Assembly: GCF_014696435.1 (NCBI RefSeq)
Contig: NZ_JACJQG010000019.1
Span: 1 to 64,000 of the forward strand
Direction of reading: 5' to 3'
Source of the DNA: Calothrix anomala FACHB-343
GTDB taxonomy: Bacteria; Cyanobacteriota; Cyanobacteriia; Cyanobacteriales; Nostocaceae
DNA: 64,000 bases
Under the pieces are notes generated by a model that was not told the origin of the DNA, did not search any database, and was given only the letters and a program-made list of their open reading frames with translations. Each line of letters begins with the position of its first letter. The first letter of the stretch is position 1. Below are positions 8,089-64,000 of the stretch, piece by piece. Position numbers and translations under genes: made by a program.

Positions 8089-9213
8089 TTAACTCAATTG
8101 ACGGCGGAATTGGTTAATGCTGATAGATAAGAGTAAGGTAGCAAAGATAAAAAGTGCGATCGCATTCCACCAAAGTACCTCTAAACCCACACCTTTGAGC
8201 AAAATTCCCCGCACAATCTCGATATAATGGCGTAGCGGATCTAGTAGAGACAAATACTTAAAGAATTCCGGCATACTTTCAATCGGTGAGATAGCGCCAG
8301 AAAGTTGAATCAACGGTAAATTGATAAAAAACGATGTCAGCACAACTTGCTGTTGAGTACGGCAAATTGTCGCCAGCATAATCCCAATACCGATACCAAC
8401 AAATAAATACAGTCCTGATAAACTCAAAAATAGTAGCGCATTCCCGCGAAAAGGGACGCTAAATACTAATCTGCCGATACTTAAAGCCAAAATTACATCG
8501 CCCATTAACAATATAAATAAAGGCACAATTTTCGCCAGTAAAATTTCCCAAGCTTCGGCGGGAGTCATTAATAATTGTTCGAGAGTTCCGGTATCCTTTT
8601 CGCGCACAACTGTGACGGAAGAAACCAAAGAACTAATCAGCGTTAAAACTAAACCTAAAACACCGGGGATGAAAAACCAACTGCTGCGTAAACCTGGATT
8701 ATATAGGAAAGTCGTCTGCGGATTAATTAAGGGAGGGGCTTGATTAGAGGAGAGACGGCGGCTAAATTGATTAATCATTTGATTGAGATAACCTTGAGCA
8801 ATTCCCGCCGTATTTGCATCGACTGCATCAATTAATATCTGTACCTCACCCGATTTATCTTCCGCTAAATTGCGTTTAAAGTCTGGGGGAATGATTAAAC
8901 CGGCTGTAATTTTACCTTGGCGTACCTCTTCACCTAAATCTTGGGGACTAAATAGATATTTTTCTAAAGTAAATACCTTATTAACTGTTAAGACAGAAAC
9001 TAATTCTCGGCTTTCATAGGTATTGGCGTAATCGACCACGCCTAACTTGAGATAATGGACATCGGGATTAAGTGCAAAGCCATAAAGCAGCATTTGCACT
9101 GTGGGAGGAATGATTAACAAAACTAAAGTCTCTCGACTCCGTAAGATTTGACGAAATTCCTTAATCGCCAAACTCCAGAATCGACTATTCAAGAGATTTT
9201 GAATAAATTTCAT
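8089..9213 (-). CDS. ABC-2 type transporter permease
   Basis: This is the membrane subunit of an ABC exporter of the YbhS/YhhJ type. It has one N-terminal helix (LVLLIIPPTVQMLLYGFAL), a large extracytoplasmic domain of about 140 residues, then five hydrophobic helices in the C-terminal half. The conserved cytoplasmic segment VREKDTGTLEQLLMTPAEAWEILLAK before the second helix group is diagnostic of the family. I chose ATG 9213 (MKFIQNLLNSRFW), giving 374 residues; the frame extends to 9255 with an atypical leader. No ATPase gene is adjacent, so its partner is elsewhere. The substrate is unknown. Confidence 0.9.
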   Translation of the reverse strand: MKFIQNLLNSRFWSLAIKEFRQILRSRETLVLLIIPPTVQMLLYGFALNPDVHYLKLGVVDYANTYESRELVSVLTVNKVFTLEKYLFSPQDLGEEVRQGKITAGLIIPPDFKRNLAEDKSGEVQILIDAVDANTAGIAQGYLNQMINQFSRRLSSNQAPPLINPQTTFLYNPGLRSSWFFIPGVLGLVLTLISSLVSSVTVVREKDTGTLEQLLMTPAEAWEILLAKIVPLFILLMGDVILALSIGRLVFSVPFRGNALLFLSLSGLYLFVGIGIGIMLATICRTQQQVVLTSFFINLPLIQLSGAISPIESMPEFFKYLSLLDPLRHYIEIVRGILLKGVGLEVLWWNAIALFIFATLLLSISINQFRRQLS

Positions 9214-61532: not shown

Positions 61533-61672
61533 CGACTTGTAAACTTACTTTCTGAGTCATTTAGCAACAGTTATGACTCGCAAACTTACTTTCTGAGTCA
61601 TTTAGCAACAGTTACGACTCGCAAACTAACTTTCTGACTCGCAAACTTACTTTCTGAATCATATTTTAGCTT
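61533..61672. repeat. 41-bp tandem repeats upstream of pflB
   Basis: AAACTTACTTTCTGAGTCAT begins at 61541 and 61582, a degenerate copy begins at 61623, and a 20-bp partial copy follows at 61643. Each full unit continues TTAGCAACAGTTATGACTCGC. The repeats lie 225-370 bases before the pflB start and could bind a regulator. Confidence 0.8.
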
Positions 61673-61788
61673 CACAACTCATACATAAGGTTTTTAGAGC
61701 ATAAATTAATGTTTAGGGTTATAAATATATAAATTACAAATTTTTACACCTAATTTATTCATTTATTGCCATTCATTAAAATAATCTA

Positions 61789-62023
61789 GCTCCCATGCTC
61801 TGCGTGGGAGCGATGATCGTGAGGCTCCGCCTCAATTTATCAGCTTTCGAGGCGGAGCCTCGCAATACGCATTTCCAAAAGGAGGCTGTAAACGAGATAA
61901 GGGACATCCAATTTTTTAAATACCCAATAAATTGGTAATGCGAGCATCTTGCTCGCTTTTGAACACCAGCGAGCAAGATGCTCGCACTACGAAATATGGG
62001 TAATTTATTCTTTGTAAGTCCCT
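61789..62023. repeat. Module E copy and a nested foldback
   Basis: 61789-61900 is module E (CTCCCATGCTCTGCGTGGGAG, GAGGCTCCGCCTC and GAGGCGGAGCCTCGCAATAC). 61901-62023 is a foldback with GGGACATCCAATTTTTTAAA and the loosely inverted GTAATTTATTCTTTGTAAGT-CCCT, holding a long hairpin TGCGAGCATCTTGCTCGC to GCGAGCAAGATGCTCGCA. A CCCAACCTAC fragment follows near 62060. No gene is seen. Confidence 0.7.
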
Positions 62024-62130
62024 AAACACCAATATCTACGTTGGGTTTCACGATCTTCTACCCAACCTACACCTAAACTTACTCTCATACAAATGACCAT
62101 TGTACGCGATTCATCGCGTCTCTGATAAAT

Positions 62131-62166
62131 AAAAAAACACCCCTATTTATTACTAAACAAGGGTGA
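62131..62166 (-). terminator. Terminator of the small-peptide array
   Basis: On the minus strand CACCCTTGTTTA and TAAATAGGGGTG pair around GTAA and are followed by seven T residues. It lies 44 bases after the last peptide gene and probably ends a polycistronic message. Confidence 0.8.
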
Positions 62167-62209
62167 TAATTGTGTGGATGAGAAGAAAGCAATGAGGTTA
62201 GACTTAAAG

Positions 62210-62452
62210 CTAGAATTGAGTTACATTGTTTGTAGGTGTATGCTCAATTATTGCTGGTAGTGTTGGTTGGGTAATTGGTAACTCTTTTTCTAAGAATTTG
62301 TTAATAGCTTGAGAGATAGATCCTTTAATATCAGCTATTACTACATCCAATCCGCTAGCAACATTTACTCCGCCAGCAACCCGATCTAATTCTTGTTCGC
62401 CAATTTCAACAGCACCGAGATTTTCAATTTTCTTATTCATGGCTTTACTCAT
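62210..62452 (-). CDS. Double-glycine-leader peptide 6 (divergent, CTB bacteriocin-like)
   Basis: This is the last and most divergent member of the array. The leader keeps the pattern GAVEIGEQELDRVAGG, with the predicted GG cleavage after residue 28. The core is different: no QQTTAGPNGSS block but IADIKGSISQAINKFLEKELPI, then a proline-rich end. Its ATG at 62452 overlaps the stop of the preceding gene (TAATG), so translation is coupled; ATG 62440 (MNKKIENLG) is an alternative start. An intrinsic terminator follows. It could be an immunity-like or specialised peptide, but nothing proves it. Confidence 0.75.
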   Translation of the reverse strand: MSKAMNKKIENLGAVEIGEQELDRVAGGVNVASGLDVVIADIKGSISQAINKFLEKELPITQPTLPAIIEHTPTNNVTQF

Positions 62453-62703
62453 TAACCGATCGCAATATTTAAACCAGCAGAACTAGAAATTTCTTTTAAG
62501 CTAGCAATCGAAGCAGTACCGCTACCATTGGGGCCTGCGTAGGTTTGTTGTGCAACTATTAACTCTTTTTGGAAGAAACCGTTACTAGCTTGAGAATTAT
62601 AGCCTTGAGCATCACCAATGACTACAGATAATCCACCAGCAACATTATCTAATTCTTGTTCAGAAAGTTCAACTACAGCGATGTTTTTGATTGATTCAGA
62701 CAT
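62452..62703 (-). CDS. Double-glycine-leader peptide 5 (CTB bacteriocin-like)
   Basis: This 83-residue precursor has the leader MSESIKNIAVVELSEQELDNVAGG, in two parts MSESIKNIAVV and ELSEQELDNVAGG, with predicted cleavage after GG at residue 24. It leaves a 59-residue core without cysteine. Compared with its sisters it has LSVVIGDAQGYNSQ and QQTYAGPNGSGTASIASL. Leaders with ELSEQELD..AGG are recognised by C39-peptidase ABC exporters. The family resembles what databases call CTB family bacteriocins in cyanobacteria, as I recall. An AGGAGTAAAAAC site precedes the ATG. Confidence 0.85.
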   Translation of the reverse strand: MSESIKNIAVVELSEQELDNVAGGLSVVIGDAQGYNSQASNGFFQKELIVAQQTYAGPNGSGTASIASLKEISSSAGLNIAIG

Positions 62704-62755
62704 TGTTTTTACTCCTAATTATGTTTTGATGTTTGAGTTGGGAAAAGAATGAGAA

Positions 62756-63007
62756 TTAACTAATTGCAATATTCAACCCAGCAGAACTAGCAACTTCCTT
62801 CAAGCTAGTAATTGAACCAGTGCTGCTACCATTGGGGCCTGCGGTGGTTTGTTGTGCAACTACTAATTCTTTTTGCCAAAATTTGTTACCAGCTTGAGAA
62901 GAATATCCTTCAACATCACCTAGTACTAAAGCTAGTCCACCAGCAACCTTATCTAATTCTTGTTCAGAAAGTTCAACTACAGCGATGTTTTTGATTGATT
63001 CAGACAT
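62756..63007 (-). CDS. Double-glycine-leader peptide 4 (CTB bacteriocin-like)
   Basis: 83 residues. The leader is identical to peptide 5 except K for N before VAGG (ELDKVAGG). The core has LALVLGDVEGYSSQAGNKFW, where the only Trp of the family replaces Phe, then QKELVVAQQ, TTAGPNGSSTGSITSLKE and the conserved end SSAGLNIAIS. The AGGAG ribosome site lies 10 bases before the ATG. The 52-base spacer to the next gene is nearly the same sequence throughout the array, showing duplication of gene plus leader region. Confidence 0.87.
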   Translation of the reverse strand: MSESIKNIAVVELSEQELDKVAGGLALVLGDVEGYSSQAGNKFWQKELVVAQQTTAGPNGSSTGSITSLKEVASSAGLNIAIS

Positions 63008-63058
63008 GGTTTTTACTCCTAATTTTGTGTTGATGTTTGAGTTTTGTAAGAATGAGAA

Positions 63059-63310
63059 TTAACTAATTGCAATATTTAAACCAGCATTAGTAGCAATTTC
63101 TTTCAAGCTAGTAATAGAACCAGTGCTGCTACCATTGGGGCCTGCGGTTGTTTGTTGCGCAACTACTAACTCTTTTTGGAAGAAATCGTTATTAGCTTGA
63201 GAAGCATAGCCGTTAACATCACCCAGAACTAAAGCTAGTCCACCAGCAACGTTATCTAATTCTTGTTCAGAAAGTTCAACTACATCAAAGTTTTGGATTG
63301 AATGAGACAT
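63059..63310 (-). CDS. Double-glycine-leader peptide 3 (CTB bacteriocin-like)
   Basis: 83 residues from ATG 63310 (MSHSIQNFDVV); the frame runs on to 63367, but the AGGAG site and sister alignment fix the start at 63310. Leader ELSEQELDNVAGG, then core LALVLGDVNGYASQANNDFF, QKELVVAQQ, TTAGPNGSSTGSITSLKEIA and TNAGLNIAIS. Differences from peptides 1 and 2 are few. The spacer upstream (63311-63451) is the longest of the array. Confidence 0.87.
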   Translation of the reverse strand: MSHSIQNFDVVELSEQELDNVAGGLALVLGDVNGYASQANNDFFQKELVVAQQTTAGPNGSSTGSITSLKEIATNAGLNIAIS

Positions 63311-63451
63311 GGTTTTACTCCTAATTTTGTGTTTATTGGTTAATTTGATTGAGGCGTTGCGTTGCATATATTCGGGAATATCGGCAAAGTTAAAACTAAT
63401 TTTTTATTCCTGATTTTCGCAACGCCAATTTTGTATTACTTGGCGATTGGA

Positions 63452-63703
63452 TTAACCAATTGCAATATTCAAGCCAGCAGAAGTAGAAATTTCTTTCAAG
63501 CTGCTAATAGAACCAGTGCTGCTACCATTGGGGCCTGCGGTTGTTTGTTGCGCAACTACTAACTCTTTTTGGAAAAAGTTATTACCAGCTTGAGAAGCAT
63601 AGCCGTTAACATCACCCAGAACTAAAGCTAGTCCACCAGCAACGTTATCTAGTTCTTGTTCGTCAAGTTCAACTGCACCGATATTTTTGATTATGTTAGA
63701 CAT
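63452..63703 (-). CDS. Double-glycine-leader peptide 2 (CTB bacteriocin-like)
   Basis: 83 residues. Leader MSNIIKNIGAV, then ELDEQELDNVAGG (D replaces S of the sisters), core LALVLGDVNGYASQAGNNFF, QKELVVAQQ, TTAGPNGSSTGSISSLKEIS and TSAGLNIAIG. Good ribosome site (AGGAGCAAAATC before the ATG). The core is moderately hydrophobic and Gly/Ser/Asn-rich with no Cys, so lanthionine bridges are not possible. Confidence 0.87.
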   Translation of the reverse strand: MSNIIKNIGAVELDEQELDNVAGGLALVLGDVNGYASQAGNNFFQKELVVAQQTTAGPNGSSTGSISSLKEISTSAGLNIAIG

Positions 63704-63756
63704 GATTTTGCTCCTGATTATTTCTTGATATTTTTGGATGTTTTGATGATGGATAA

Positions 63757-64000
63757 TTAACCAATTGCGATATTCAAACCAGCAGAACTTGCAACTTCTT
63801 TCAGGCTGGTAATTGAACCAGTGCTGCTACCATTGGGGCCTGCGGTTGTTTGTTGAGCAACTACTAACTCTTTTTGGAAGAAATTGTTGTTAGCTTGAGA
63901 AGCATAGCCGTTAACATCACCCAGTACTAAAGCTAGTCCACCAGCAACGTTATCTAATTCTTGTTCAGAAAGTTCAACTGCACCGTTGTTTTTGATTGTG
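63757..64000 (-). CDS. Double-glycine-leader peptide 1 (partial at window edge)
   Basis: The stop codon is at 63757-63759, and the frame is open to the window edge with only the first few codons missing. The visible leader is NNGAVELSEQELDNVAGG and the core LALVLGDVNGYASQANNNFF, QKELVVAQQ, TTAGPNGSSTGSITSLKEVA and SSAGLNIAIG. It shows that the array continues to the right, where more precursors, the exporter or processing genes may lie. Confidence 0.85.
   Translation of the reverse strand, partial: TIKNNGAVELSEQELDNVAGGLALVLGDVNGYASQANNNFFQKELVVAQQTTAGPNGSSTGSITSLKEVASSAGLNIAIG

Follow-up and report, generated by a model that had tools for sequence, protein, structure and literature searches.

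The window analyzed here, the first 64,000 nucleotides of contig C56 (NZ_JACJQG010000019.1) in the 9.24-Mb genome of Calothrix anomala FACHB-343, ends in six consecutive minus-strand genes that run from 64008 down to 62210 and encode small precursor peptides of the CTB family (Table 1). Eight bases of gene 1 lie beyond the window end (window part, 63757 to 64000). Spacers of 51 to 141 bp separate genes 1 to 5, the stop of gene 5 shares one base with the start of gene 6 (TAATG, at 62452), and a stem of 12 pairs followed by seven T residues (62165 to 62138) stands behind gene 6; seven terminator-like sites were found in the scanned stretch, versus 2.1 expected from shuffles. The six genes are probably cotranscribed to this one terminator, and none of the six products contains cysteine. 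A preliminary description, made from the letters of the window, had reported the six genes, the coupling, the terminator, and the absence of cysteine, and all four agree with the coordinates and counts given here. The array DNA has a tandem period of 304 to 305 bp (TRF), and the other open reading frames (ORFs) of at least 40 residues within it (44, 60, and 66 residues) are all antisense to the array. A promoter scan gave 6 sites versus 7.5 expected, and an Rfam scan around the array gave no match. The start of gene 3 is placed at 63310, where the family match begins; an upstream ATG in the ORF list (63367) would give 102 residues.

Five of the six genes exceed the cut-off of NF038167, “CTB family bacteriocin” (cyan_ocin_like), with 69.1 to 74.5 bits versus 32 when gene 1 is scored as cut by the window end, while gene 6 falls below it. 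Because these five genes pass, the family is a known one, as the preliminary description had guessed; their scores and the presence of the array in two other genomes show that it is not a product of chance. The genome holds six matches over the cut-off, namely, the five array genes and one on contig C103. At least 36 of 386 sampled cyanobacterial genomes have such a match, and tandem CTB copies are present in many of the sampled genomes; in the window's family, Nostocaceae, 35 of the 43 genomes listed have a CTB match at an E value of 0.001 or better. Other searches returned little: Pfam gave sub-threshold lantibiotic and class II leader matches alone, PHROGs gave no match for the three of six array genes tested, a profile search of the PDB had a best hit at E 0.74, and none of the six TIGR03798 (N11P) matches in the genome lies in the array. 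A lanthipeptide assignment was rejected as far as tested, given that no product has cysteine and that PF05147 (LANC_like) has no match in the genome. A plasmid search yielded four Calothrix records with matches at five places; the gene table of one (AP018291.1), which is incomplete, lists no exporter less than 8 kb from the match.

The preliminary description of near-identical leaders and shared core motifs holds as to near-identity, while exact matches are fewer: the leader ELSEQELDNVAGG occurs in three of the six genes, the remaining leaders being ELDEQELDNVAGG, ELSEQELDKVAGG, and EIGEQELDRVAGG, and exact QKELVVAQQ, AGPNGSS, and AGLNIAI occur in four, four, and five of the six products, respectively. 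Its reading of the products as double-glycine (GG) precursors is supported. Its claim that the last gene has an unrelated core had to be rejected. The gene 6 core, LDVVIADIKGSISQAINKFLEKELPITQPT, aligns with that of gene 1, LALVLGDVNGYASQANNNFFQKELVVAQQT, at a score of 69, and with the five siblings at scores of 68 to 71 over about 30 residues, which none of 2000 shuffles per sibling reached (best shuffle, 47). A whole-protein search of the genome with gene 6 likewise finds the siblings, at 51 to 55% identity over about residues 2 to 66. The tail alone differs: beyond the aligned residues the siblings carry AGPNGS...SSAGLNIAI or near variants, and gene 6 has a proline-containing tail. The proposal that one maturation system handles two kinds of cargo is weak for this gene pair, although in relatives the same type of leader does precede unrelated-looking cores. 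At the end of other CTB arrays stand one or two divergent cores, several of them proline rich, behind leaders of the same type (Table 1), so a divergent last gene is recurrent.

Near-identical copies with a TAATG-coupled terminal variant also occur in Calothrix brevissima NIES-22 (G461), where the terminal gene is 91% identical to gene 6, and in Tolypothrix sp. FACHB-123, where the orthologue stands behind six array copies at a contig edge; the one-base overlap is kept in both. Copy number differs among the three arrays, as does the DNA downstream of them, and one further copy in NIES-22 is broken by a stop. In a DNA tree of the array copies, those of FACHB-123 form one group (support, 0.998) and the C. 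anomala and NIES-22 copies are intermixed, a pattern of duplication or homogenization after divergence. Between genomes, the ratio of nonsynonymous to synonymous substitution (dN/dS) averages 0.26 in the core (85 pairs) and 0.36 in the leader (83 pairs), the pairs being nonindependent and phylogeny ignored; for the terminal core, dN is 0.026 and dS is 0.087. The array cores are under purifying, not diversifying, selection. They have a net charge of -1 to -2, and their pattern, QK.L.V.QQT.AGP.G, recurs in arrays of several genera.

Arrangements vary elsewhere. In one 11.6-Mb genome (G476; contigs C7, C9, and C12), the best 10 of 13 CTB matches are spread over nine places, for the most part as scattered single genes and not in arrays. 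An array in another (G445:C1:3995688-3997395) coincides with CTB single-nucleotide polymorphism sites, 3,996,355 and 3,996,451, reported for Tolypothrix PCC 7712 against PCC 7601 (PMC9679502), from which we infer that G445 may be PCC 7712. CTB arrays may thus change between near-identical strains.

The GG leaders had been taken to imply a C39-peptidase exporter, to be sought to the right of position 64000 together with HlyD or modifying enzymes. The genome does hold C39 domains (seven strong and three weaker PF03412 matches), so the genome-wide lack of such an exporter, which the preliminary description had named as refuting its reading, does not apply, but none adjoins the array. Directly beside it, no exporter, HlyD, or enzyme modifying ribosomally synthesized peptides was recognized; the neighbors tested are a pyruvate-formate-lyase-like protein, a protein without a Pfam match, and a DnaJ/TPR protein, and the flanking ORFs are not all characterized. 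The nearest C39 gene (C56:92137-95151) starts 28 kb to the right, its C39 domain lying about 29 kb off, and points away; it encodes a long-type, 1004-residue cNMP-C39-ABC (ATP-binding cassette) protein. Among the matches listed, a C39 domain lies less than 10 kb away from 44 of 53 CTB clusters (36 genomes), and the other 9, the window array included, lack one at that distance; these counts cover matches over the cut-off and leave eight genomes with only sub-cut-off matches unclassified. The family is a known one; the setting, that of an orphan array which ends in a coupled variant gene, is unusual.

The leaders point to an exporter type. Those of the array have the form ELSxxELDxVAGG and match the leaders of CTB genes beside NHLM-type (TIGR03796) exporters, not those beside other short C39 exporters: CTB clusters near TIGR03796 exporters carry ELSxxELD or a close form, and those near the other short exporters carry mostly LSxEQQE. 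We scored leaders with a 12-position profile resting on 5 regions (20 peptides) on the NHLM side and 39 regions (160 peptides) on the other, several of the 39 having no script-recognized exporter ORF and being classed by the presence of a C39 domain and the lack of an NHLM match. With one region left out at a time, 20 of 20 and 159 of 160 leaders, respectively, were placed correctly; this count excludes seven peptides from L099 (intermediate leaders), L138 (at a contig start), and L141 (an orphan whose LSEVQQQ leader scores -15.3), as well as nine peptides in which no GG leader was parsed. All six window leaders fall on the NHLM side, at 18.8 to 21.1 bits. Positive scores were obtained for 41 of the 44 leaders from the nine orphan regions; the other three belong to array L111 of G174. 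Seven of the nine clusters without a near C39 domain (one in G000, three in G091, and three in G174) have ELSxxELD/E leaders among the matches listed; the orphans of G191 and G078 have leaders of other forms, and that of G078 sits where a contig begins. An NHLM exporter is present in 6/6 genomes with ELS-type CTB genes versus 7/30 with other CTB genes, again among the matches listed (Fisher p 0.0009, not corrected for phylogeny), the former count becoming 6/7 if the intermediate leaders of G278 are taken as ELS type. A further 17 of 17 genomes, not randomly chosen and with CTB leaders not all typed, have both a CTB match and an NHLM exporter over the cut-off. Downstream of several non-NHLM exporters lie short Gly/Trp/His-rich or Cys-rich peptides with LSxEQQE-type leaders, unlike CTB cores (Table 1).

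One match to TIGR03796 at an E value of 1e-200 or better exists in the C. anomala genome, on contig C103 (C103:12235-14418; 1160 bits, cut-off 853). Before it stand a CTB gene (at 8905) and the genes of a cNMP protein (TIGR03896) and HlyD (TIGR03794); after it stands that of a second ABC protein (TIGR03797). NIES-22 has an exporter of this type at C1:5524491-5526614. The Cys, His, and Asp of its peptidase, which we take to be the catalytic residues, align with those of the six other strong C39 domains. The CTB peptide encoded next to this exporter has same-strand homologues 3' of CTB genes in two genomes, G451 (45/71 identical) and G456 (35/69), and a weaker one in G478 (23/64), a second link between such genes and this exporter. 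Leader type, companion peptide, and co-occurrence point to the NHLM exporter on the other contig, and the leaders suggest that the array peptides are secreted by a machine whose genes lie at another place in the genome.

The model that we favor is as follows. The array precursors would probably be recognized in trans, through their ELSxxELDxVAGG leaders, by the NHLM-type C39 exporter on C103; this machine, composed of the cNMP protein, HlyD, the peptidase-ABC protein, and the second ABC protein, would cleave behind the GG motif and release cores that carry no lanthionine modification, with about 59 residues for the array peptides (predicted to begin LALVLGD or LSVVIGD) and 52 for the terminal one (VNVASGLDVV). 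The most likely role of the conserved cores would be that of abundant peptides of the extracellular matrix or cell surface, similar to EbfG1-4, not that of a diversifying toxin. Taken whole, from tandemly amplified array and translationally coupled variant to trans export and matrix or surface role, we give this explanation an even chance of being correct.

The comparison is with Synechococcus elongatus PCC 7942, in which EbfG1-4 are small GG proteins needed for biofilm formation and their secretion needs the C39 exporter PteB (PMC4997328). EbfG1-3 form amyloid and EbfG4 does not, and the authors of that report draw the comparison with CsgA and CsgB (PMC9981879). Several small GG precursors share one operon there, as they probably do in the window with its similar copies and divergent last gene, and EbfG4, which we presume from its number to be the last, differs from its siblings at the amyloid hotspot (PMC9981879). 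Unmodified array peptides seem less likely to be toxins than components of the matrix or surface that work as EbfG does, because the core is conserved, the core pattern is recurrent, the spacers leave no room for an immunity gene, and the charge is weakly negative.

Several observations weigh against the favored model. The NHLM exporter lies on another contig than the array, and the long C39 exporter 26 to 28 kb from the array, whose position is conserved in NIES-22, could be its partner instead. The leaders of L111, the main orphan array of G174, score just -1.0 (three) and 0.9 (three), and region L099 of G278 has intermediate leaders (LSNEQLEVVAGG and similar; scores, -4.6 to 1.4) beside a non-NHLM short exporter. 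Both the co-occurrence and the dN/dS values ignore phylogeny and rest on nonindependent pairs. The window-type terminal gene is rare, since a close match is present in 2 of 193 sampled family genomes, the window's own and that of NIES-22, and CTB genes are annotated as bacteriocins. As for EbfG, S. elongatus has no match to NF038167 (E 0.1) or TIGR03796, and the EbfG hotspot A[FI]NI[GS] occurs in 0 of 291 distinct cores. A relaxed form, [AG][FILVM]NI[AGS], defined post hoc after the sequences had been viewed, occurs in 16 of the 291, all GLNIA of this array type, and in 38 of 4000 shuffles. With no family match in S. elongatus, the hotspot absent from the cores, and the relaxed form post hoc, a function like that of EbfG is a proposal, and identity with EbfG is not claimed.

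The foremost alternative, which we consider somewhat improbable, is a bacteriocin or microcin array whose unmodified cores antagonize related cyanobacteria, the similar copies raising the dose or broadening the spectrum. It has the NCBI family name behind it, together with 290 putative precursors around bacteriocin-type clusters in cyanobacteria (PMC3140520), one Nodularia CTB operon that phosphate starvation induces and for which an allelopathic role is discussed (PMC9846622), and the differing copy numbers of the three arrays. However, the intergenic spacers are too small for an immunity gene (the flanking ORFs not all being characterized), and weakly acidic cores under purifying selection that share one pattern across several genera also count against it. 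No activity assay of CTB peptides was met in the literature covered, and a search on tandem C39-linked bacteriocin arrays in Tolypothrix gave nothing relevant among the matches listed. A more specific version of the matrix proposal, speculative and in our judgment unlikely, is that the array encodes secreted fiber or sheath material of filamentous cyanobacteria, with many copies of a major subunit and a coupled terminal variant exported in trans by the NHLM machine. The variant, keeping the assembly half without the C-terminal half, would cap, anchor, or nucleate the fiber, in a division of labor like that of CsgA and CsgB or of EbfG1-3 and EbfG4.

A second alternative, clearly unlikely, concerns the route: the array would be exported not by the NHLM machine but by the long cNMP-C39-ABC exporter on the same contig, behind which an HlyD-like ORF was noted by eye. 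That protein has C39, ABC membrane, and ATPase domains; its spacing from the array and divergent orientation are alike in NIES-22 (exporter at 1554326, minus strand; array from 1580990, plus strand), and the approximately 24 kb between exporter and array, upstream of the latter, are largely syntenic in the comparison with NIES-22. However, ordinary-looking genes lie between the two, so the closeness may be plain synteny, the array leader type points to the NHLM side, and among the matches listed the C39 frames near the 44 CTB clusters are of the short type, at 717 to 813 residues, the long-type frames listed having at least 836. The exporter region (L010:15538-19998, C56:91537-95997) comprises a helix-turn-helix protein, the exporter, and the start of the HlyD-like ORF; a 1158-residue RTX-repeat protein is encoded in the same region (L010:3869-7345).

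That the cores or cleaved leaders serve as cell-cell signals in filaments, as proposed for HetC cargo, seems very unlikely: small size and a secretion signal would fit, and HetC of Nostoc PCC 7120 is a C39 exporter with no known substrate (PMC10986499), but many near-identical copies suggest abundance rather than signaling, and no receptor-like gene was recognized beside the array. Decaying, unexported duplicates without a partner exporter are extremely improbable, for despite the lack of an adjoining exporter and the broken NIES-22 copy, the dN/dS values are low (about 0.26 to 0.36), all six frames are open, the array is present in three genomes, and the genome has an NHLM exporter.

Table 1. 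Features of the array and of CTB-related loci compared with it
Feature	Position	Strand	Basis
Gene 1, CTB precursor, 83 residues	63757..64008	-	ORF L009:7758-8009; NF038167, 77.2 bits at C56:63760-64008
Gene 2, CTB precursor, 83 residues	63452..63703	-	ORF; NF038167, 69.1 bits (cut-off 32)
Gene 3, CTB precursor, 83 residues	63059..63310	-	NF038167, 74.1 bits
Gene 4, CTB precursor, 83 residues	62756..63007	-	ORF; NF038167, 69.9 bits
Gene 5, CTB precursor, 83 residues, stop overlapping start of gene 6	62452..62703	-	NF038167, 74.5 bits
Gene 6, terminal variant, 80 residues	62210..62452	-	NF038167, 16.6 bits (cut-off 32); core alignment; relatives
Intrinsic-terminator-like stem-loop behind gene 6	62138..62165	-	Terminator scan (L009 6166-6139)
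Divergent last cores of other CTB arrays	L177:2253-2854, L078:2252-2851, L075:227-475, L145:10297-10533, L110:7868-8077		
Gly/Trp/His-rich or Cys-rich short peptides	L097:8868-9065, L101:683-817, L102:2463-2666 and similar		

Between the array terminator and the pyruvate-formate-lyase-like gene, two dispersed, partly palindromic repeat elements with dozens of genome copies lie at 61786-62029 of the window. A 41-bp tandem repeat (2.6 copies, 92% matches, 20-bp sub-repeat) occupies 61533-61657, between the glycyl-radical enzyme gene and the array.

Set beside known systems, the array shares with the CTB family its leader and core, both matched by NF038167, and its tandem copies; it differs in lacking an adjoining C39 exporter and in having a terminal gene under the family cut-off. 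The C103 locus, with its CTB gene in front, carries the gene set of the NHLM export system (TIGR03794/03796/03797; Haft et al. 2010, PMC2887384), and the end of the gene 1 leader weakly matches the end of the NHLP leader model (TIGR03793; 12.5 of 50.9 bits, E 0.1, positions 62-77), gene 1 being the only array gene listed; the array itself is unlinked and, unlike the precursors of that report, is without the long NHLP/Nif11 leader domain. The locus also has the make-up of group V among the cluster groups I to VII of Wang et al. 2011 (PMC3140520), namely, a short C39 exporter, a second ABC protein, a cNMP/CAP_ED protein, and HlyD, but precursors were sought there around transporter clusters, and the window array is not beside one. 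For prochlorosins and synechococsins (PMC10783134), too, the precursor genes stand apart from those for processing, either dispersed or in tandem; in contrast to the array peptides, they are LanM-modified lanthipeptides.

CTB genes occur widely in the window's family, and the word bacteriocin comes with their name. The match between leader and exporter is a testable rule for which exporter serves orphan CTB arrays; with its conserved cores and coupled last gene, the window array lends itself to a simple test of toxin versus matrix. If the fiber proposal were true, part of the CTB “bacteriocins” would be structural proteins.

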